Positions 4,773-63,397 of a DNA stretch of 64,000 nt are shown one piece after another. Both the position numbers and the translations under genes were made by a program. The notes below the pieces were generated by a model. The model did not search any database, was not told where the DNA came from, and saw only the letters and a program-made list of their open reading frames with translations. The stretch is from Actinomycetospora cinnamomea. GTDB taxonomy: Bacteria > Actinomycetota > Actinomycetes > Mycobacteriales > Pseudonocardiaceae. How positions within the stretch are numbered: position 1 is the stretch's first letter; each line of letters starts with the position of its first letter. The stretch is taken from contig NZ_QEKW01000005.1 in NCBI RefSeq assembly GCF_003096675.1, positions 186,001 through 250,000 of the forward strand. Reading direction: 5' to 3'.

Positions 4773-5572
4773 GCCCGACTCCGCTCCCGCCCGAGGCGCC
4801 GCCGGTGGAGCCCGAGCACGCCATCGACGAGGCGGGCGGCACCACCGCCCAGCACGCCGAGCTCTCGAGGGTCGACACGAGCGTGTTCGACGGGGTGCGC
4901 GAGCGCGCCGCGGCGATCCTCGCCCGCTACCCGCAGCCCCGCTCGGCGCTGCTGCCGCTGCTGCACCTCGTCCAGCACGTCGAGGGCCACGTCTCGCGTG
5001 CCGGCATCGCGTTCTGCGCGGAGGTCCTCGAGATCACGACGGCCGAGGTCTCGGCGGTCGCGACCTTCTACACGATGTACAAGCGCGAGCCCGTCGGCCG
5101 CCACCTGGTCAGCGTGTGCACCAACACGCTGTGCGCAGCGCTGGGTGGTGACGACATCTACGCGGCCGTGCGCGAGCGTCTCGGCGGGCCGGATCAGCCC
5201 CTGGGCCACGAGCAGACCGCCGCCGACGGGTCGGTGACGATCGAGCACGCCGAGTGCCTGGCGGCGTGCGACCTCGCCCCGGTGCTGACCGTCGACTACG
5301 AGTTCTTCGACAAGCAGACCGTCGACTCCGCGCTCGAGATCATCGACGCGCTGCGGCGCGGGGAGAAGCCGCACCCGACGCGCGGGGCCCCGCTGACCGA
5401 CTTCCGCTCGGTGGAGCTGCTGCTCGCCGGGTTCTTCGACGACCCGGCCGTCGGTGGCCTCGAGGCCGTCGCCGGCCCGTCCGCGGCCGTGGAGAGCCTG
5501 CGCGGCGCCCGGCTCGCCGAGGAACGCGGCTGGACCGCGCCGCCCGTGCCCGACGAGGGAGCGCACACATGA
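4769..5572 (+). CDS. nuoE: NADH-quinone oxidoreductase subunit E
   Basis: 24-kDa thioredoxin-fold subunit with the [2Fe-2S] cluster N1a. 267 aa from a TTG that overlaps the nuoD stop; no ATG or GTG in frame fits better. The four cluster ligands are in VCTNTLC and AECLAAC. The domain occupies residues 25-190. The remaining 75 residues are Ala/Pro-rich and variable, making this longer than E. coli NuoE (166 aa), as usual in actinobacteria. It works with NuoF and NuoG in the NADH dehydrogenase module. Confidence 0.95.
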
Positions 5573-6900
5573 CCGACCCGCTCACCCCCGTGCTCACCAA
5601 GCACTGGCTCGGCCCCGAGTCGTGGACCCTGCGCCACTACACCGAGCTCGGCGGCTACTCCGCCCTGCGCACGGCGTTCGACACCCCGCCGGACGACCTC
5701 GTCGCCCTGGTCAAGGACGCGGGCCTGCGCGGCCGCGGCGGCGCCGGGTTCCCGACGGGCATGAAGTGGAGCTTCATCCCGCAGGCCAAACCGGGGGAGG
5801 AGCCCACCGGCCCCGCGGCCAAGCCCAAGTACCTCGTCATCAACGCCGACGAGGGCGAGCCGGGGACCTGCAAGGACACCCCGCTGATGATGGCCGACCC
5901 GCACTCGCTCATCGAGGGCTGCATCATCACCGCGTACGCGATCCGCGCCCACTTCTGCGCGATCTACGTGCGCGGCGAGATCGTGCACTGCATCCGGCGC
6001 CTGCACGCCGCGGTGCGCGAGGCCTACGAGGCCGGCCACCTCGGCAAGGACATCCACGGCACCGGGTTCGATCTCGACATCGTCGTCCACGCCGGCGCCG
6101 GCGCGTACATCTGCGGGGAGGAGACCGCGCTGCTCGACTCGCTCGAGGGCCGGCGCGGGCAGCCGCGTCTCAAGCCGCCGTTCCCCGCGACCGCGGGGCT
6201 CTACGCGGCCCCGACGGTGGTCAACAACGTCGAGACCATCGCGACCGTCCCCTCGATCGTGGCGGGCGGCAAGGACTGGTTCCGGACGATGGGGCGCGAG
6301 CGCTCGCCCGGCCCGAAGATCTACTCGCTGTCCGGGCACGTCGAGCGCCCCGGCCAGTACGAGGCGCCGCTGGGCACCACGCTGCGCCAGCTGCTCGAGC
6401 TCGCGGGCGGTATGAAGGACGGCATCCCGCTGAAGTTCTGGACGCCCGGCGGGTCGTCGACGCCGCTGCTCACGGCCGAGCACCTCGACGTCCCCTTGGA
6501 CTTCGAGGGCGCCACCGAGGCCGGCTCGATGCTCGGCACCACCGCGCTCATGATCTTCAACGAGACCGTCTCGGTGCCGTGGGCGGTCATGAAGTGGACC
6601 GAGTTCTACGAGCACGAGAGCTGCGGCAAGTGCACCCCGTGCCGCGAGGGCTGCTACTGGATGGCCGGCATCCTGCGCCGCATGGTCGACGGCGAGGGCA
6701 CCGAGGCCGACATCGACACCCTGCTCGACGTCTGCGACAACGTGCTCGGCCGCTCGTTCTGCGCCCTCGGCGACGGCGCGGTCTCGCCGATCACCAGCGG
6801 CATCAAGTACTTCCGTGACGAGTTCGTCGCCCTCTGCGGTGCCCAGCGCCGGCACCCCGAGGTGGAGCGGATCGTCGAGCTGAGCGGAGCCAGCGCATGA
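5569..6900 (+). CDS. nuoF: NADH-quinone oxidoreductase subunit F
   Basis: 51-kDa subunit that oxidises NADH, with FMN and the [4Fe-4S] cluster N3. 443 aa from the ATG overlapping the end of nuoE. Visible motifs are the glycine-rich NADH site GLRGRGGAGFPTGMKW, the FMN region INADEGEPGTCKD, AGAGAYICGEETALLDSLEG, and the cluster ligands SCGKCTPCREG with the later Cys in SFCALGDGA. Its last bases overlap the nuoG ATG (ATGA). Confidence 0.98.
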   Translation: MTDPLTPVLTKHWLGPESWTLRHYTELGGYSALRTAFDTPPDDLVALVKDAGLRGRGGAGFPTGMKWSFIPQAKPGEEPTGPAAKPKYLVINADEGEPGTCKDTPLMMADPHSLIEGCIITAYAIRAHFCAIYVRGEIVHCIRRLHAAVREAYEAGHLGKDIHGTGFDLDIVVHAGAGAYICGEETALLDSLEGRRGQPRLKPPFPATAGLYAAPTVVNNVETIATVPSIVAGGKDWFRTMGRERSPGPKIYSLSGHVERPGQYEAPLGTTLRQLLELAGGMKDGIPLKFWTPGGSSTPLLTAEHLDVPLDFEGATEAGSMLGTTALMIFNETVSVPWAVMKWTEFYEHESCGKCTPCREGCYWMAGILRRMVDGEGTEADIDTLLDVCDNVLGRSFCALGDGAVSPITSGIKYFRDEFVALCGAQRRHPEVERIVELSGASA

Positions 6901-9572
6901 CCGCCGCGTCTGAGAGGGCCCCGGAGCGGACCACCCAGGACGAGGACCTGCCCCCCGTGCCCGAGGGGCACGTCCGCCTCACGATCGACGACCGGATCGT
7001 CGACGCCCCGCAGGGCGAGCTGATCATCCGGACGTGCGAGCGGCTGGGGATCGTCGTCCCGCGCTTCTGCGACCACCCCCTGCTCGACCCGGCCGGCGCG
7101 TGCCGCCAGTGCCTGGTCGAGGTGGAGATGAACGGGCGCCCGATGCCCAAGCCGCAGGCCAGCTGCACGATGACCGTCGCCGACGGCATGGTCGTGAAGA
7201 CGCAGATGACCTCGGCGGTCGCCGACAAGGCGCAGCAGGGCGTCATGGAGCTCCTGCTGATCAACCACCCGCTCGACTGCCCGGTCTGCGACAAGGGCGG
7301 CGAGTGCCCGCTGCAGAACCAGGCGATGTCGTCGGGGCGCGCCGAGTCGCGGTTCGTCGAGGAGAAGCGGACCTTCGCCAAGCCGCTGCCGATCTCCGAC
7401 GAGGTGCTGCTCGACCGCGAGCGCTGCGTGCTCTGCCAGCGCTGCACGCGCTTCTCCCGCCAGATCGCCGGCGACCAGTTCATCGAGCTGCTCGAGCGGG
7501 GCGCGCACCAGCAGATCGGCACCGAGGAGACCGCCTTCGGCGAGGGCGAGGACTTCCAGTCCTACTACTCGGGCAACACCATCCAGATCTGCCCGGTCGG
7601 GGCGCTGACCTCGGCGTCCTACCGTTTCCGCTCGCGCCCGTTCGACCTCGTCTCCACGCCGGGCGTGGCCGAGCACGACAGCTCGGGCGCCTCGGTGCGC
7701 CGTGACTGGCGCCGCGGGGCGGTCCAGCGCGTGCTGGCCGGCGAGGACCCCGAGGTCAACGAGGAGTGGATCGACGACAAGACCCGCTTCGCGTTCCGCT
7801 ACACCCAGGCCGCCGACCGCATCACCCGCCCGCTCGTGCGCGGTGCCGACGGTGCGCTGCACGACGCGTCGTGGACCGAGGCCCTCGAACGCGCCGCCTC
7901 CCTCCTGATCGCAGCCCGTGACGGCCTCGGTGTCAGCGGTGGGCCATCGCAGACACTGGATGACAGCGATGCCACACCGCTGACACCGGGCGAGGGCGAG
8001 GAGGACACGGAGCGTGAGCCCAAGCGCGGGGTCGGCGTGCTGCCCGGCGGCCGGTTGACCGTCGAGGACGCGTACGCGTACGGCAAGTTCGCCCGCCTGG
8101 CGCTGGGCACCAACGACGTCGACGCCCGCGCGCGGGTGTCCTCGGACGAGGAGCTGGACTTCCTCGCTGCGCATGTCGTCGGCACCGGGCCCGGGCACGT
8201 CTGGGCTCCGTCCGTCACCTATGGGGCGCTGGAGTCCGCGCGCACCGTGCTGTGCGTGGCCCTCGAGCCCGAGGAGGAGGCGCCGATCGTCCTGCTGCGG
8301 CTGCGCAAGGCCGCGCGGGCGGGGACGCGGGTGCACCACCTCGGGCAGTGGTCGACGCCGGCGGTGGTCAAGACCGGCGGGCACCTCGTGCGGGCCGTGC
8401 CGGGCGAGGAGCCGGTCGCGCTCGACGCGCTGCCCGACGAGCTCGACGCCGCCCTGGCCGCGCCGGGTGCGGTGATCCTGGTCGGCGAGCGGGCCGCGGA
8501 CGTGCCCGGCCTCTACGACGCGGTCGGCGCGCTGGCCAACCGCACCGGGGCCAAGGTCGCGTGGGTGCCGCGACGGGCGGGCGAGCGCGGGGCGCTCGAC
8601 GCCGGCCTCGTGCCGGGCCTGCTGCCCGGCGGCGGGGCCGTCGCCGACGCCGGGGCCCGCGCGGCGCTCGCGTCGGCGTGGGGCCTCGCCGGGACCGAGC
8701 TCCCCGCCACCCCGGGGCGCGACCTCACCGGCATCCTGCGGGCGGCGGCCGACGGCGAGCTCGCCGGCCTCGTGGTCGGCGGCGTCGAGCTCGACGACCT
8801 GCCCGACCCGGCGCTGGCGCGCGCGGCGCTGCGCGAGGCCGACGTCGTGGTGAGCCTCGAGCAGCGGCACAGCGAGGTCACCGAGCTCGCCGACGTCGTG
8901 CTGCCCGTGGCCCCGGTGATCCACAAGTCCGGCACCTTCCGCAACTGGGAGGGCCGCGACCGGCGCTTCGCCACGACGATCGACCCCTCCGGGGGGTCGG
9001 CCGGGCACGTCGGGGGCCGGGCGGCGATCACGCTGCCGGACTGCCGCGTGCTCGACACCCTGGCCGTCGAGATGGACGTCGACCTGTTCACGCAGACCCC
9101 CGACGTCGCGGCCGCCGAGTTCACCCGCGTCGCCGCGGCCCTGACCGACGCCCGGAGCGCCGCGCACGGGCACCTCGCGGCCGCCCGGCAGACCCCGGCC
9201 GAGGAGCGCGGCGGCGAGCCGGCCCTGCGCCTCGCGAGCTGGCGCCAGCTGCTCGACGGCGGGCGGCTGCTGGTCGACGAGCCCGAGCTGGCGGGCACCG
9301 CGCGCCCGCCGCGGATCCGGGTCTCGCCCACCACGGCCACCCGGCTGGGCCTGGTGGAGGGTGCGATGGCCGGGCTCGAGGGCCCGCGCGGTGCCCTGCA
9401 CCTGCCCGTCGAGCTCGCCGATCTGCCCGACGACGTGGTCTGGGCGCCGGCCCGGGTGCCGCAGCCGGACGGCGGCGTCGTCACCCTGGCCGCGCTCGGC
9501 CTCACCCACGGCGGCCCCGTCGCGGTGACGGGCGGGCAGCGGGACCTGACCATCGAGGAGAGCCCGGCGTGA
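6897..9572 (+). CDS. nuoG: NADH-quinone oxidoreductase subunit G
   Basis: Large iron-sulfur subunit, 891 aa. The N-terminal [2Fe-2S] ferredoxin domain shows [18 protein letters not shown]. Next come the His-Cys [4Fe-4S] domain ([18 protein letters not shown]) and paired [4Fe-4S] ligands ([10 protein letters not shown] and QICPVGAL). The molybdopterin-oxidoreductase-like domain follows without evident cofactor residues. A low-complexity acidic insert of about 40 residues lies near residue 340-385 ([20 protein letters not shown]). It relays electrons from NuoE/F to NuoI. The large antisense frame on the minus strand here is a shadow. Confidence 0.96.
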
Positions 9573-10891
9573 ACCCGGTTCCGCCCCCACCGGGGTACTA
9601 CCAGACCCTCATCGCCGACGACCCGTTCTGGCTGACCCTGATCAAGGTCGTCATCGTGTTCGCGGCGCTCATGCTCGTGACCCTGTTCATGATCTGGTTC
9701 GAGCGCCGGGTCGTGGGTCGGATGCAGCAACGCCCCGGCCCGAACTGGAACGGCCCGTTCGGCCTGCTCCAGTCGCTGGCCGACGGCCTCAAGCTGGCGT
9801 TCAAGGAGGACGTCCTGCCGGCCGCGCGGGACCGCGCGGTGTTCTTCCTCGCCCCCGTGCTCTCGGTGGTCCCGGCGTTCGTGGCCTGGTCGGTCATCCC
9901 GCTGGGGCCCGAGGTGTCGATCTTCGGTGAGGCGACGGCGCTCCAGCTCACCGACGTGCCCGTCGGCATCCTGGTCGTGCTGGCGTGCTCGTCGGTCGGC
10001 GTCTACGGGATCGTGCTCGCGGGCTGGGCGTCCGGCTCGCCCTACCCGCTGCTCGGCAGCCTGCGCAGCGCCGCCCAGGTGATCTCCTACGAGCTCGCCC
10101 TCGGCCTGTCGATCATCGGGGTGGTGCTCTACGCGGGCTCGCTGTCCACCGCCGACATCGTCTCCGCTCAGCAGACCGGGTGGTACATCTGGCTGCTCCC
10201 GGTCAGCTTCCTCATCTTCGCGGTGTCGATGGTCGGCGAGACCAACCGTGCCCCGTTCGACCTGCCCGAGGCCGAGTCGGAGCTGGTCGGCGGCTTCCAC
10301 ACCGAGTACTCGTCGCTGAAGTTCGCGCTGTTCTTCCTCGCCGAGTACGTCAACATGGTCACGCTCTCCGCCGTGGCCACCACGCTGTTCCTCGGCGGCT
10401 GGATGGCGCCGTGGCCGCTCTCGCTGATCCCGGGGGTCAACGAGGGCTGGCTGCCTCTGCTGTGGTTCTTCGGCAAGACGCTGGCGTTCCTGTTCGTCTA
10501 CGTCTGGCTGCGCGGCACGCTCCCCCGCCAGCGCTACGACCAGTTCATGCGGCTGGGCTGGAAGCTGCTCATCCCGGTCGGCCTGCTCTGGCTGGTGCTC
10601 GTGGCCGCCCTGCGGGTGCTGCGCACCGAGCTGACCACCGGGCAGATCCTCATCGCCGGCGGCGTGGCGCTGGTCGTGCTCGTCGGCGCGGCGCTGCTGC
10701 TGCCCGACCAGGCGCCGCCCGAGGAGGACCCCGAGCCCCCGGTCGTCGCCGACTACCCCGTGCCCCCGCTCGACCTCGCGGTCCCGCCCACCCCGAAGCG
10801 GCGCCGCCGCGCGGTGACGGCGGCGCGCGAGGAGCCCGAGCAGGGCGGCGAGACCGTCACCGCCGGCGCGAGCCGGGAGGGAGATCGCTGA
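9569..10891 (+). CDS. nuoH: NADH-quinone oxidoreductase subunit H
   Basis: Eight-helix membrane subunit forming much of the quinone chamber, 440 aa from the GTG overlapping the nuoG stop. Family motifs include [37 protein letters not shown] and [27 protein letters not shown] in pieces along the protein. The C-terminal 70 residues after the last helix are charged and Pro-rich (an actinobacterial extension). The stop codon shares one base with the nuoI start (TGATG). Confidence 0.96.
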
Positions 10892-57066: not shown

Positions 57067-60000
57067 TCAGTGGACCCTCACGAACCCCCACATCCCCTGC
57101 GTGACGGCCCAGCGGAAGGCGCCGCTGCGGTAGGCGTGGTCGCCCGGGTGGCCCGCCGCCATGGCGATGTCGTGAACGACATCCGCGGTGAGGCCCGAGA
57201 GGCCGCCGATCTGCGGCGAGGTGCCGCCCAGCCACGGCCCCATCGCCCACTGCTGCCCGTGGGCGGTGAACGTGTGGTTCCTGGGCTTGTCGCACGCTCC
57301 GACGAGCCGGAGCCACAGCGTGTCGCCCTGCCGGGCCTCCCACATGGGTGTCGGCGGGATGTCGTGGAGCCGGGTCCGCGGATGGACCGGACGGCACCGG
57401 TAGTTGATGCCCTTCTGGCCGGCGTCCTCGGGGTCGTCGCCGGGCTCGACGTCCGCGACGGGTGAGGTCAGGTCGCCGTACGCGTAGTGCCGAAGGCCGT
57501 CCTGCCAGAAGAGCACCTGCTCGTTCGCGGACTCGCCGTGCTCGCCGTGAGGGCGGCGCACGGTCGTCCGCGTGCCCGTCCAGTCGTCGGGCACCCACCC
57601 CTCGGGCTCGACGACGAGCGCGCCGACGAGGCCGTGGTGCCGGTGGTTGCGGATGTCGGCCATGTCGTGGAGGAAGCAGACCTGCCCCACGCCCTTGCCG
57701 AGCTCCGGGTCCGCGTACCACCAGTAGCAGCGCCAGTTCTGCCGGTCGTGCCCGTGGCCGTCATGGTCGGCGACCGCGCCGTCGTCGGGTCCGTGCCCGT
57801 GGTCGTCCTCGAGCGGCAGAGGCCGCACGGTCGAGTCACGGTTGGCGCCGACGTGGGCGCCGTCGTCGGCCACGACGTCGTACCGCAGCAGCGCGGGGTG
57901 CAGCGAGACGCGGGGGCTGACCGTGCGCCGGTTCTCGTCGAGGGGCAGCGCCGGAGGGTGTGGCTCCGGGCCGAAGCGGGGGAGCAGCGGGTCCTCGTAG
58001 CGCCCCGTCCAGCCGTCCCGCGCCTCGAAGCCGTCGCGGGGCAGCCTCACCTCGTTGACGAGGCAGACCCGCACCCATTCGCCGGGCCGGCACCGGAGGA
58101 CCAAGGGCTCGGGCGCGTCGTCCGGGGGCTCCGGTCCGACGCGCCAGTCGCCCTCGACCCACGGGTGCGCCACGGGCTCGGCACCGCGCTCACGGACCTC
58201 CGGCGGCGCGAACGGTGAGCCCGTCCCGTCGGCGTCCTCCCGCTCGTCCTCCCGCTCGTCCCCCCGCGTGGTCTCACCGTGGGCGAGCACCTCGTACACG
58301 AGACCGTAGGGGTCGGTGAGCCGCCGGCCGTCGTACTCGTGCTCGACGCGTCGGGCGCGAACGGTGAACCAGCGGTACCGCTCCCCGGGGCCAGGACGCT
58401 CCAACGGCTCCGACAGGGCCTCGTCCGTGTCGAGGCGTGGGAGTGCGGAGCCGGGCACGAGGACGCGGACGAGGCCCCAGCACCCCAGCCACAGGTCGTC
58501 CATCGCGCTGAAGCGCCAGAGGTGGTCACCCACGCCGTACGGCGACGTCCCGTCCCCGTTGACGTCGAGGGTGAAGGCCTCGGAGATGCCGAGCGTCTGC
58601 TGGTTGACCAGCGTCGATGCGGTCTTCTGCCACTCACGTCGCCACCGCAGGCCGTGGGTGACGAAGCTGTGCTGCTCCTCGTGACTCCCCTGGATGAGGC
58701 GGATCCGCAGCCGCTCACCGGGGTAGGTCGGGATGATCGGGGTCTCGGGGTCGCGCAGCCAGGAGGAGCGCGTCAGCTCGCCGGCGTGGCCGGGTTCCGG
58801 CCGGTCCGCACGACGTCGACGTCCGTGGTCGGTGGCAAACCAGGCGGACGGATCCGGACCGCGCGCCGTGAGGGGCGCACAGCGATGGTTGACGGCCATC
58901 GTGCCCGGGTCGTCGTCGCCACCGAGCTCGCCCGGCGGGTTCAGCGGGCGTTCCTCGCGGTCGTAGAGCGGGACGAAGTCGCCCATGCCGAGGCAGGCCT
59001 CGCGGAAGGCGCCGATCGCGCTCTCGCGGCGAGGGGTCACCACGGCGCTCGTCCCGCTCCAGGCGACCCCGCCGGGACTGTTCCCGAGGGCGCTCTCGTC
59101 GAACTCGTCGTCCCCGTCGTCCACCTCGTCCGCCCTCGGGAGGGCGCGGACCAGCGGGGGACCGGGTGCCCAGGTGGCGCCGGGCGGCTCCGCGATCAGC
59201 GCGGCGAAGAGGCCCCGCTTCTGGCGGTAGTTCGCCAGCAGGTGGTCGTGGAAGAAGCAGGGCCCGAACTCCTCGTCGACCACCCACCGGTGGAGGCTCA
59301 CGTTGGCGGGCAGGGGGACGTCGCCCACGCCCGGCACCGCCTCGCGGCAGCTCGCTCCGGAGAGGTAGTTCCAGCCGGTGGAGGAGCCGTCGGCCGCGAG
59401 CACGTCGAACTTCACGAGGTGGACGTGCAGGCCGCACTCGACGGGCAGCTGGGTCAGGTCGAAGTGGTCGGCGCCGATCGTGCCGAGCTCGTTGTGCAGG
59501 CGGAGCTCGACGACGTCGCCGTGGTTCGCCCGGACGAAGAACGGCTCGCGAGGATCGCGATCGACCGGCAGCGGGTGCTCCGTGCGCCGACCGTTCACGA
59601 CCGTGCTGACGCCGCGCAGCGCGTAGAAGTGGCCGTGGTGATCGTGCCAGCCGATGCGGTTGTAGGTGATCTGCTCCTCGGCGACGTCCACGTCGTAGGA
59701 GATGACGCGATTCGCGGCCGGGACGCCCGCCGTGGCGTTCCATGTGCGTGCTTGTGTGTCGAGGGCGACGAAGGGCGCGCCCGGTCGCTGGGCGGCGCCC
59801 GGTGCGAAGGCCGCCGTCTCGGCGGCCGAGGCGGGCGGGAGCTCGAGGAGCCGGCGTCGCCCTCCGACCTGACCCGGGGCGGCGGCCGGGGGCGGCGGAG
59901 CCTTCTGCGGGACGGCCGCGTCGACGAACCACGGGAAGCCGACGCGGCGTCCGGCCGGGAGGGGGAAGGCGGGGTGGCCGGGACGCGGTGCGTCCTCCGG

Positions 60001-61899
60001 CCCGCGCCCGGGCAGCGGCTTCAGCGCAGGGCAGGGCGTGCCGTCGGGAAGGGGCGTCGCGCCGTCCACGACCGTGTCGAAGCTGCGCCACAGCCCCCAC
60101 ATGCCGTGGTGGAAGTGGGGGTAGAGGTGGCAGTGCCAGATGATGTCGCCGAACGAGTGCTGGCGGCTGCCGGACCCGTAGAGCGGGTCGATCGTGAACC
60201 CGGCCTGGGGACCGATGGAGATGGAGTCGAGCAGCTGCGAGCCGCGCTCCGCGCCCGGGCGCCACGCGCTCGGGGCGGCGGTGTCGGTCGGGATCGCATG
60301 CCACTGGTGGACGTGCAGGTGGAAGACGTGGGTCTCCTTGACGCCGGCATGCACCAGCCGCACCCGGCAGGGGTCGCCGCGGTAGGCCCGCAGGATCGGT
60401 GTCGCGGGGTCGCCGAAGAGCCAGGAGCTGTGGTGCTGCTCCTCGCCGGCCACCCGCTCGATCCACGTGCCGTCGGAGCGCCGCCCGATCCAGAACTCCT
60501 CGGCGAGCGTGTGGGGGTCGATCGCGCGCTTCACCGCCCGCAGGTCGTGGGGACTCGAGGAGGGCGTCGTGCCGGGGATCGCCGCGCTGCCGGTCCTCCG
60601 GGTCTGGTCCGCGTACTCCCGCATCCGGTGCGGGAGGCGGTTCGGCATCGGCTCGGCGCGATACGACAGCGGCATCACGGTGTGCTCGCCGCCTCCGATG
60701 TGCAGCGCGCTGTGCACCTCGGGCTCGTCGTGGATGAAGATCGTGAACTCGCGGTGCGGGCGCCAGCGCTCGCCGTCGGTCGCGAGGTCGACGTACTCCT
60801 CGGTGGCGGCCTGACCGCTCCTCCGGTGGATGTCCACGTCGAGGGCGCAGCCCAGGTCGGAGTCGGTGACGTCGTCGCCGGTCACCGGGTCGTGCCAGGT
60901 GGCCTGCTCGGGCTCGACGAGCAGCACGCCGAAGAGGCCGTGGGCGTTCGTCCCGTCCTGGGTGCCGCGGACGTCGGCGAGGTCGTTGAGCGGCCACACG
61001 CCCTCGGTGTCAGCCTTCCACCGGTAGGTGATCGTCCGACCTGTCGCTGCCGTCGTGTCGGGGTTGGCGCCCACGTGTGCGCCGTCGGCCTCGCGCACGC
61101 CGCCGACGAGCCCGGCGCCCTGACGGTGGAGGCCCACCCGCCGTCCCCGCACCTCGTTCCGGAGGGTCACCTCGACCGTCTCCCCGGCGCGGGCGCGCAG
61201 GACGAGTGGACGTGCCGCCGGGAGTGGGCGCAGGGGGTTGACGCGGTTGTACGAGGTCGCCCGCGCACCGACGGAGGGGATGACGTCGTTGAGGGCGAGC
61301 TGCTCGAGCTGCGGCCGGGTGAGGCCGGTCTCCCGCAGGAGCCGGGGAAGCTCGCCGAGCCACTCCTTGTGGATGCCGGCAAGGCGCTGCGCGATCGCGT
61401 CCTCGAGGACGGAACGGGCGGACCCCCACCGCCAGCGCCAGCGCCGGCGGACCTCCGGATCACGGTGGACCTCGTCGATCTCGCCGCCGGTGAGCTCGTC
61501 GAGGATCGACGTCAGCTCGTTCACCGTCGTCCGGTAGTGCTGCTCGATCTCGCGGCGTCCGGGCCGGATGGACGGGTCGGGGGCCTCCTCGGCCGCGTCG
61601 GCGGCGATCACCTCGCCGCGATGCACCAGGAGGTCGGCGTGGGCGGCGAGCGTGGTCCGCAGGAGCCGCTCCATCTCCTCGTAGCGGTCGAGGCCGTCGA
61701 GCAGCATGGTGATCAGCTGCCGCCGCCGGTGCGCCTCGGGGAGCCACTCATCGTCGCGCCGCCACTGGTCGCGCACCCAGCGCAGGAGCGGGACGACGCT
61801 GCTCGGCGCGTAGAGCAGACCGTTGCGGTCGTGGTCGCCGTCGTGGGTGTAGACGATCGGGAACTCGAGCGCCGTGACGTCGTAGGAGCGGACGGACAT
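57067..61899 (-). CDS. Giant multicopper oxidase, MnxG-like
   Basis: 1610 aa from the ATG at 61899; no signal peptide. The N-terminus VTALEFPIVYTHDGDHDRNGLLY resembles the MnxG type of Mn(II) oxidase. Residues 10-230 contain a helical insertion. Several cupredoxin-like domains follow. HVFHLHVHQWH is near 522-533 and HCHLYPHFHHGMWG near 586-600, both fully equipped. GWHDHHGHFY is near 748, GLHVHLVKFD near 820, FFHDHLLANYRQKRGLF near 880. Further weaker pairs are THGLRW (about 1075), LHDMADIRNHRHHGLVGALVV (about 1410) and HTFTAHGQQW (about 1540). The motif order is permuted. Oxidation of Mn(II), Fe(II) or phenols is possible; substrate unproven. Confidence 0.8.
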   Translation of the reverse strand: MSVRSYDVTALEFPIVYTHDGDHDRNGLLYAPSSVVPLLRWVRDQWRRDDEWLPEAHRRRQLITMLLDGLDRYEEMERLLRTTLAAHADLLVHRGEVIAADAAEEAPDPSIRPGRREIEQHYRTTVNELTSILDELTGGEIDEVHRDPEVRRRWRWRWGSARSVLEDAIAQRLAGIHKEWLGELPRLLRETGLTRPQLEQLALNDVIPSVGARATSYNRVNPLRPLPAARPLVLRARAGETVEVTLRNEVRGRRVGLHRQGAGLVGGVREADGAHVGANPDTTAATGRTITYRWKADTEGVWPLNDLADVRGTQDGTNAHGLFGVLLVEPEQATWHDPVTGDDVTDSDLGCALDVDIHRRSGQAATEEYVDLATDGERWRPHREFTIFIHDEPEVHSALHIGGGEHTVMPLSYRAEPMPNRLPHRMREYADQTRRTGSAAIPGTTPSSSPHDLRAVKRAIDPHTLAEEFWIGRRSDGTWIERVAGEEQHHSSWLFGDPATPILRAYRGDPCRVRLVHAGVKETHVFHLHVHQWHAIPTDTAAPSAWRPGAERGSQLLDSISIGPQAGFTIDPLYGSGSRQHSFGDIIWHCHLYPHFHHGMWGLWRSFDTVVDGATPLPDGTPCPALKPLPGRGPEDAPRPGHPAFPLPAGRRVGFPWFVDAAVPQKAPPPPAAAPGQVGGRRRLLELPPASAAETAAFAPGAAQRPGAPFVALDTQARTWNATAGVPAANRVISYDVDVAEEQITYNRIGWHDHHGHFYALRGVSTVVNGRRTEHPLPVDRDPREPFFVRANHGDVVELRLHNELGTIGADHFDLTQLPVECGLHVHLVKFDVLAADGSSTGWNYLSGASCREAVPGVGDVPLPANVSLHRWVVDEEFGPCFFHDHLLANYRQKRGLFAALIAEPPGATWAPGPPLVRALPRADEVDDGDDEFDESALGNSPGGVAWSGTSAVVTPRRESAIGAFREACLGMGDFVPLYDREERPLNPPGELGGDDDPGTMAVNHRCAPLTARGPDPSAWFATDHGRRRRADRPEPGHAGELTRSSWLRDPETPIIPTYPGERLRIRLIQGSHEEQHSFVTHGLRWRREWQKTASTLVNQQTLGISEAFTLDVNGDGTSPYGVGDHLWRFSAMDDLWLGCWGLVRVLVPGSALPRLDTDEALSEPLERPGPGERYRWFTVRARRVEHEYDGRRLTDPYGLVYEVLAHGETTRGDEREDEREDADGTGSPFAPPEVRERGAEPVAHPWVEGDWRVGPEPPDDAPEPLVLRCRPGEWVRVCLVNEVRLPRDGFEARDGWTGRYEDPLLPRFGPEPHPPALPLDENRRTVSPRVSLHPALLRYDVVADDGAHVGANRDSTVRPLPLEDDHGHGPDDGAVADHDGHGHDRQNWRCYWWYADPELGKGVGQVCFLHDMADIRNHRHHGLVGALVVEPEGWVPDDWTGTRTTVRRPHGEHGESANEQVLFWQDGLRHYAYGDLTSPVADVEPGDDPEDAGQKGINYRCRPVHPRTRLHDIPPTPMWEARQGDTLWLRLVGACDKPRNHTFTAHGQQWAMGPWLGGTSPQIGGLSGLTADVVHDIAMAAGHPGDHAYRSGAFRWAVTQGMWGFVRVH

Positions 61900-61922: not shown

Positions 61923-62714
61923 TCAGGCGCCGAGGAGCGGGTGGACCAGAGCGGGTGGAAGGAAGCCGGCGAGCAGCGCCGTGCCGAGCAGGAGGAGGAC
62001 GACGCCGGTGGTCCGGGCGATCACGTGCGCCCTGGGGACGAGGCGTTCGGCCGCCATGACGGCGGTCAGCACGACCATCACGGGCAGCGCGAGCGCCCCC
62101 GTGCCGAGGCAGAGGAGCATCAGCGCCCAGCAGCAGCCGACGCAGGAGACGCCGTAGGCGCTCGCCACCGTGGCGGCGTCGAGTGTCGGACTGCGACGCC
62201 CCCAGAAACGCAGGGCGAACCATCGCGGCGTCCGGCAGGCGGTCAGGCAGGCGTTCTTGACCGGGGTGAACTGGTAGGCGCCGGCGAGGACCACGAGGCC
62301 TCCGGCGACCCGCAGGTGCGTCGCGGGCGCGACCGAGCCGGAGAGCACGGTCTCGATCACGAAGCCGCCGGTGACGAGCACGACCCCCACGGCGAGCCAC
62401 ACCCCGACGAACGCGGCGAGGGCCACGGCGAGACGCCACGCCACGTGGCCTCGTCGGCTCAGCAGCGCCCGGAGCAGACCGACGAGGGGAAGGGCGGGCG
62501 GCAGCATCATCGCCAGGACCATGAGCGCCCACCCCGCGAGGGTCGTCAGCAGGGCGGCGACGTCCGCGGGCGCGTCGGCGTGGTGCGCGTGCGGTGTCCC
62601 GCCGGTATGGCTGACGACGACCCCGACCCAGGCGGCCGCGGCGACACCGAGCACGGCCGTGGTGACGGAGGGCGTCGGGGCCCGGCGAGTCCGGCGTGGG
62701 GCCAGGACCGACAT
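61923..62714 (-). CDS. DUF2182 family membrane protein
   Basis: 263 aa from the ATG at 62714. Seven or so hydrophobic helices. LMVLAMMLPPALPLVGLLRALL and LAGAYQFTPVKNACLTACRTPRWFALRFWG are the family signatures, followed by VSCVGCCWALMLLCLGTGAL with three more cysteines. The HTGGTPHAHHADAP loop near the start is His-rich. Cysteine and histidine clusters suggest metal contact, but no biochemical role is established. It lies 23 bp from the oxidase gene and 15 bp from DUF1326 on the same strand. Confidence 0.85.
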   Translation of the reverse strand: MSVLAPRRTRRAPTPSVTTAVLGVAAAAWVGVVVSHTGGTPHAHHADAPADVAALLTTLAGWALMVLAMMLPPALPLVGLLRALLSRRGHVAWRLAVALAAFVGVWLAVGVVLVTGGFVIETVLSGSVAPATHLRVAGGLVVLAGAYQFTPVKNACLTACRTPRWFALRFWGRRSPTLDAATVASAYGVSCVGCCWALMLLCLGTGALALPVMVVLTAVMAAERLVPRAHVIARTTGVVLLLLGTALLAGFLPPALVHPLLGA

Positions 62715-62728
62715 CGGACGTCCGCCTG

Positions 62729-63397
62729 TCAGCCGGAGGCGCTGTTGCGCGGATGGCGGTAGTGGAACTCGCCGCACATCCCCGACCGCGCCCGTGCCTC
62801 GATGTACCCGCCGCCGCGCAGGGCTGGGACCGCGAGGCTGATCGACTCACTGCGCTGGGCCACGGATTCGTTCTTGATCTGCAGCTCGTGATGAAGTGCT
62901 GAATGGTTCAGGGTGAGTGGGTGCGACTCTTCCTCGAACGTGATCGGCGTGCCCTCGGCGTGCACCGTCGCGCACTCGTCGTTGCCCACCCTGACGGTCC
63001 AGGAACCATTCTTCTGTTCGATCGTGATGGGCTGATCGAAAATTGTCTCGAGGACGATGCCGTTGACGGTCGACAGAGCGGCGAGGGGATCCTCGCGGGC
63101 GGCGAGGCCCTCCTCGTCGGGGGCGAACGCGGCTTCCAGGACCCGCTGCTGTGCGGCTTCATCGGCGTCGACGTGCAGGACCGTCGTGGCGCCGCGATCG
63201 CGCCGCCCGCTTCCGTGGCTGGTGACGGCGACGACCCTGGTGCCCGCCACCCCGACACCGTCGATCTCGCCGCGGGTCAGGTCCCAGGCGACGAGGCCCG
63301 TGCAATGGCCTTCGTCCGGCTGGTCGTCGACCCAGCACGGGCACAGTTCGAAACAGTCGCAGGCCTCGATGAAAAGACCCTCGAAATCGTAGTTCAC
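62729..63397 (-). CDS. DUF1326 family protein
   Basis: 222 aa. It begins MNYDFEGLFIEACDCFELCPCWVDDQPDEGHC, a cluster of five cysteines (CDCxxxCPC) that defines the family. LVAWDLTRGEIDGVGVAGTRVVAV follows, and the C-terminal part HSALHHELQIKNES contains adjacent His residues. DUF1326 and DUF2182 genes commonly sit side by side; a metal-handling pair is an inference. Probably the first gene of the DUF1326-DUF2182-oxidase transcription unit. The 222 bases upstream (63398-63619) contain no gene and likely hold its promoter. Confidence 0.85.
   Translation of the reverse strand: MNYDFEGLFIEACDCFELCPCWVDDQPDEGHCTGLVAWDLTRGEIDGVGVAGTRVVAVTSHGSGRRDRGATTVLHVDADEAAQQRVLEAAFAPDEEGLAAREDPLAALSTVNGIVLETIFDQPITIEQKNGSWTVRVGNDECATVHAEGTPITFEEESHPLTLNHSALHHELQIKNESVAQRSESISLAVPALRGGGYIEARARSGMCGEFHYRHPRNSASG

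Follow-up and report, generated by a model that had tools for sequence, protein, structure and literature searches.

In multicopper oxidases (MCOs), a T1 copper takes electrons and passes them to a trinuclear centre for O2 reduction. Genetically known enzymes that make Mn oxides are few, and the characterised one closest to the protein described here is MnxG of Bacillus sp. PL-12, which belongs to the MnxE3F3G complex (PDB 9bxa) and is made up of six cupredoxin domains, with the T1 site in domain 2 (D2) and the trinuclear centre between D2 and D3. In the Bacillus Mnx system, both MnxE and MnxF are needed for activity and overexpression (PMC5622069). Proteobacterial MnxG (NCBIfam model NF041487, Pseudomonas) is also a large six-domain MCO with the same motif order. 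According to the available text of Vasin et al. 2013 (PMC3600357), six-domain blue proteins occur in bacteria, archaea and green algae, and the bacterial ones, which are 1217-2681 aa long, carry a trinuclear centre at D2/D3, a mononuclear site in D2 and residual copper residues elsewhere; the 23 prokaryotic proteins surveyed there fell into two clusters (Proteobacteria, and Firmicutes with Halobacteria) plus a planctomycete. A further described system is PpoB2 of Marinomonas mediterranea (COG5486, PF09948), a membrane protein with conserved Cys residues encoded in one operon with a copper oxidase, which transfers copper to the tyrosinase encoded in its operon and not to the MCO PpoA (PMC2855505).

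The window, that is, the whole stretch of 64,000 nt from Actinomycetospora cinnamomea that was analysed, encodes an oxidase that shares with MnxG the six domains, the location of the copper sites and the ligands, and with the survey's six-domain proteins the residual sites. Unlike Bacillus MnxG, it is 1610 aa long and has a helical insert in D1 and clade-specific Cys and His residues. Unlike the Bacillus Mnx locus, it has no mnxE or mnxF upstream, and a DUF1326-PpoB2 gene pair stands in their place. The pair itself departs from the Marinomonas precedent, in which the PpoB2 client is a tyrosinase, whereas the partner here is an MnxG-like MCO and the locus has DUF1326 as an additional gene. What appears to be new is a clade of actinobacterial, sphingomonad and cyanobacterial proteins that combines the insert, the clade-specific Cys/His residues close to the copper motifs, the lack of a visible signal peptide and the gene pair, and that is not described in the available text of the 2013 survey. 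The protein is a giant copper enzyme of the MnxG six-domain kind, from a branch that is apparently undescribed so far.

A six-domain oxidase related to MnxG

The oxidase is encoded on the minus strand at 57067-61899, by an ORF with an ATG start preceded by GGAGG, as stated in the first-pass annotation, which had read it as a multicopper oxidase of 1610 residues. Its sole sequence match in the PDB was Bacillus MnxG (9bxa; phmmer, E 1.3e-146), and the alignment is colinear from residue 218 to the C-terminal end. Identity to the Priestia MnxG, a relative that also has no visible signal peptide, is about 39%. The nearest NCBIfam model was likewise MnxG (NF041487; 188.9 bits, E 7.5e-56). This score is far under the curated cut-off of 3100 bits for that equivalog model, so that, by this measure, the oxidase is not an MnxG ortholog. 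The protein had also been thought to exceed the usual MnxG size, a view that did not hold up, as the NF041487 model spans 1894 positions and relatives listed in the available text of the 2013 survey range up to 2681 aa.

Structure prediction and a count of cupredoxin domains, both suggested in the first-pass annotation, gave six domains. AlphaFold models were made for residues 1-1170 (pTM 0.80) and 706-1610 (pTM 0.85), and both gave 9bxa as the best hit in the fold comparison; with the model of residues 1-1170, this match covered 783 residues at Z 26.9 and 3.0 Å. The six domains are arranged as three tandem two-domain cupredoxin units, which could still be recognised as internal repeats (E 2e-17 between units 1 and 2, E 4e-9 between units 2 and 3). 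The kinship with MnxG that had been proposed is therefore backed by sequence, by fold and by the tree (see below), and the assignment as a six-domain MCO colinear with Bacillus MnxG, including its copper architecture, is well supported.

Two further results on the fold bear on the question of the substrate. Ceruloplasmin, a ferroxidase, was among the next fold matches after MnxG, and two-domain laccases matched the fold over single units. The latter, together with the characterised link between PpoB2 and a tyrosinase in Marinomonas (PMC2855505), could be taken to indicate an oxidase of organic substrates, that is, a polyphenol oxidase or laccase-like enzyme next to which PpoB2 would be found as it is next to that tyrosinase. 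We consider this improbable, as no laccase was matched by the oxidase in the sequence search, at E values up to 10, and the nearest proteins in sequence, fold and tree are all MnxG-like. Nor does the protein look like a three-domain laccase, since it does not group with these by sequence and its trinuclear motifs lie in D2 and D3 of six domains. Neither of the two outcomes named in the first-pass annotation as speaking against an MnxG-type enzyme, a place among laccases or copper ligands that do not fit, was seen; the ligands of MnxG align with those of the oxidase.

Copper motifs and their order

An alignment of 35 homologs showed all 12 expected copper ligands to be invariant (His524, His527, His529, His589, Cys590, His591, His595, Met600, His825, His827, His884 and His886), which means that the motifs are not due to chance. 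The first motif, HVFHLHVH (residues 524-531; 60307..60330, minus strand, as for all features below), provides the predicted T1 ligand H524 and the trinuclear ligands H527 and H529, and aligns with MnxG. The second, HCHLYPHFHHGM (residues 589-600; 60100..60135), provides C590, H595 and M600 to the T1 site and H589 and H591 to the trinuclear centre; H595 pairs in the alignment with the mutated H340 of 9bxa. Both lie within the first 40% of the protein (33-37% of its length), where they had been reported. The remaining trinuclear ligands come from HVH (residues 825-827, within LHVH 824-827; 59419..59427), which is present in 35/35 homologs and 26/26 out-group sequences and in which H825 and H827 pair with the HIH of MnxG, and from HDH (residues 884-886, within FHDH 883-886; 59242..59250), present in 35/35 homologs. 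The T1 motif is thus in D2 and the trinuclear motifs are in D2 and D3, in the same columns as in MnxG, and the placement of the predicted T1 copper in D2 and of the predicted trinuclear centre between D2 and D3 is well supported by the alignment.

The N-terminal-type motif pair had been given as WHDHHGH and FHDH. The second of these stands, whereas WHDHHGH (residues 751-757; 59629..59649) is not a trinuclear motif, as H752 is found in only 18/35 homologs and H754 in 4/35; LHVH had been overlooked and, judging from conservation, is the true partner of FHDH. WHDHHGH is instead part of a 'GxxDxxG' stretch that is repeated close to the beginning of all three two-domain units. Its last residue, H757, is specific to the clade of the oxidase (27/27 members inside, 4/26 sequences outside). 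Other invariant residues specific to the clade include Cys881, Cys1408, His870 and, beside the T1 ligands, His597 and His598. Cys822 is also invariant in the clade, yet it is present in 11/26 outsiders. The N-terminal GDHDxNG stretch, which had been likened to that of MnxG-type enzymes, is indeed common to MnxG relatives.

When the three units were aligned with one another, full copper motifs were seen in D2 and D3 only, with nothing but lone His residues in the other four domains. Remnants of this kind are HEEQHSFVTH in D4 (residues 1073-1082; 58654..58683), whose matching HCH motif is lost, HDMADIRNHRHH in D5 (residues 1411-1422; 57634..57669) and HTFTAH in D6 (residues 1542-1547; 57259..57276). 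Degenerate sites had been announced downstream of the active motifs, which is correct for D4 to D6, but one more is located in D1, ahead of the active sites.

The order of the motifs had been described as permuted. It is rotated relative to three-domain laccases and ceruloplasmin, and on this basis one could imagine an ordinary multicopper oxidase that has undergone a novel circular permutation. However, the same order is found in MnxG and, in the available text of the 2013 survey (PMC3600357), in bacterial six-domain MCOs and the green-algal Fox1, and remnants occupy the same positions in each two-domain unit. No rearrangement is needed if different sites of one repeated scaffold have been kept. 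This makes a novel circular permutation extremely improbable, and a permutation unique to this protein is ruled out by the colinear alignment with MnxG together with the published D2/D3 rule. That is, the 'permutation' is real when compared with laccases, and since it matches the published D2/D3 arrangement it is ordinary for the six-domain family.

Helical insert, N-terminus and distribution of the clade

A structural difference from MnxG is an insert of three long helices (residues 33-213; 61261..61803) placed after the first strands of D1 and modelled with pLDDT mostly >90. It is 153-248 aa long in 27/27 aligned clade members, versus 7-46 aa in homologs of the short type. Searches with the insert sequence against Pfam and the PDB gave nothing significant, and the VIA-align list held no separate match to it, although residues 1-844 were mainly tested there, so that this list is not evidence for a new fold. 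Homology of the insert to MnxE/MnxF was rejected, as no similarity was found and MnxE/MnxF look beta-rich by eye. Most likely, the insert serves in docking or oligomerisation, and it possibly covers in this clade some of the functions that MnxE and MnxF have as separate proteins in Bacillus. A haloarchaeal relative (L064, Halorientalis; 5251-10416, 1721 aa) also has an insert, of ~180 aa, at the equivalent place in D1. The match of the clade insert profile to it was not significant (E 0.32), and it may therefore be independent.

By hydropathy, the N-terminus has no hydrophobic segment (best 17-residue Kyte-Doolittle mean 0.84), in line with the lack of a signal peptide reported earlier, and none was visible by this measure in any clade member, whereas among six-domain relatives in which a signal or membrane segment can be seen, most have means of 1.35-2.4. 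The proteobacterial relatives L081 and L082, which are ~32% identical to the oxidase, have a hydrophobic N-terminal segment and are devoid of the helical insert. As no export signal is visible, the oxidase with its predicted T1 copper would have to function in the cytoplasm or leave it by some other route.

In a tree of 53 sequences, an analysis also proposed in the first-pass annotation, the oxidase was nested among MnxG-like proteins, in a clade with a support of 1.000 and a long stem. Sequences outside it included MnxG of the Bacillus type, relatives from proteobacteria and actinobacterial relatives with a membrane anchor. The clade itself has members in Actinomycetota, in cyanobacteria and, among alphaproteobacteria, in Sphingomonas, Novosphingobium and Pseudoroseomonas. 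A fragmentary locus of Gemmatimonadota (L030), omitted from the tree, also has the insert and the gene cluster. The homologs were collected by a pattern scan that favours peptides of the oxidase, so that counts for the clade are valid for the 41 loci and the window. The closest relative is from Actinomycetospora straminea (82-83% identity), and the gene is patchy, with a match in 6/18 Actinomycetospora genomes and none in the other 12. A separate group of actinobacterial six-domain MCOs (L104, L106, L107, L108, L109, L111) has strongly hydrophobic, probably membrane-spanning N-termini. Moreover, MnxG-like genes are plasmid-borne in several phyla (L060, Pseudonocardia; L061, Hymenobacter; L062, Microvirga; L063, Priestia; L064, Halorientalis), and the Hymenobacter and Microvirga copies adjoin metal-efflux genes.

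The DUF1326-PpoB2 pair and the substrate

A gene for a PpoB2-family membrane copper chaperone (PF09948, DUF2182; 144 bits, cut-off 28.7) lies 23 bp upstream of the oxidase, at 61923..62777, with its ATG start likely at 62714; the two genes apparently share an operon. The hydrophobic spans of the product indicate a multi-span membrane protein, and its C177, C181 and C215 are conserved in the clade. The first gene of the cluster (62729..63397) encodes a DUF1326 protein (PF07040; 73.5 bits against 25) with a CDCxxxCPCW motif, and beyond it are, by inspection, apparent fatty-acid oxidation genes. PpoB2 is directly upstream of the oxidase in 28/30 clade loci with upstream DNA, the two exceptions (L024 and L041) apparently belonging to a single Acidimicrobiales population, and DUF1326 is present in 27/29 loci with enough upstream DNA. 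Outside the clade, the pair was found beside an oxidase in Glycomyces only (L032), on the opposite strand. PpoB2 matches were obtained in 19 clade genomes, and 17 of these had just one. The pair also occurs away from MCOs, e.g. as a second copy in Geodermatophilus, and is therefore a portable module. A PKD-domain protein without a visible signal peptide is encoded in 21 clade loci and is absent from the genome of the window; in this family (e.g. L013, 4868-6589), an N-terminal part of ~270 aa is outside Pfam, and the gene precedes DUF1326 in many clade loci. Literature searches (DUF2182/DUF1326; Mn oxidation in the clade genera) returned nothing on the cluster, although papers on it may exist.

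Starting from the observed ORF, fold, ligand conservation, clade and gene cluster, the reading we favour, with somewhat better than even confidence, is a metal oxidase, most likely of Mn(II), that receives its copper from PpoB2/DUF1326. Among possible substrates Mn(II) comes first, given that no characterised protein is closer than MnxG, and copper delivery is suggested by the gene linkage. In such an enzyme, the T1 site in D2 (His524, Cys590, His595, Met600) would take electrons singly; through the His-Cys-His bridge these would reach the trinuclear centre (His527, 529, 589, 591, 825, 827, 884, 886), where O2 would be reduced to water. The two upstream proteins would most likely supply the copper, and the helical insert would most likely dock or oligomerise, possibly standing in partly for MnxE/MnxF. 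The absence of MnxE/MnxF-like ORFs from the window and clade loci, combined with the presence of the insert, leads us to propose that some of what MnxE and MnxF do is taken over here by the insert or by the copper pair. Against the Mn(II) and copper-loading reading may be set the low NF041487 score, the limited identity to the Priestia protein, the missing MnxE/MnxF, the lack of a visible export signal and the fact that the Marinomonas PpoB2 client is a tyrosinase.

The same fold and copper sites could also serve to oxidise Cu(I) or Fe(II), the enzyme protecting from metal stress while PpoB2/DUF1326 handle copper. A copper-handling pair directly upstream, the fold match to ceruloplasmin and the efflux genes next to plasmid-borne relatives would fit with this. 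We nevertheless regard it as rather unlikely, as the closest relative of characterised function oxidises Mn and the clade loci have no conserved efflux or iron gene next to them. Returning to Mn(II), a broader proposal, which we make tentatively and with some doubt, is that the cluster of DUF1326, PpoB2 and long MCO, often with the PKD protein, may constitute an undescribed, self-contained metal-oxidase system across actinobacteria, sphingomonads and cyanobacteria that would oxidise Mn(II) without MnxE/MnxF, by means of the helical domain and the copper-loading pair, and without a classical export signal. What accessory proteins such as MnxE and MnxF do could be tested cleanly in this clade, with its fused helical domain and its putative copper-loading pair. 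The cluster also points to a way of supplying copper when such oxidases are expressed, and provides a marker for seeking metal oxidation in the three groups. PpoB2 and DUF1326, nearly absent from the literature searched, would gain a likely client.

Downstream, the PGA_cap gene (PF09587; 55857-57035, minus strand), 31 bp from the oxidase and weakly similar to the lasso-peptide epimerase MslH, was rejected as an operon member, as the family does not recur downstream of clade loci. In Bacillota relatives, MnxE/MnxF-like ORFs occupy the upstream slot (in Priestia and Clostridia-type loci only), and the PpoB2 profile had no true matches in two of these loci (L044 and L045). In thermophilic Clostridia-type loci, the MnxF-like and MnxE-like parts apparently form a single ORF, which precedes the gene for a short MnxG-like oxidase (L038, 7109-7972; L045, 7227-7901; L042, 7243-7965; L044, 5796-6503).
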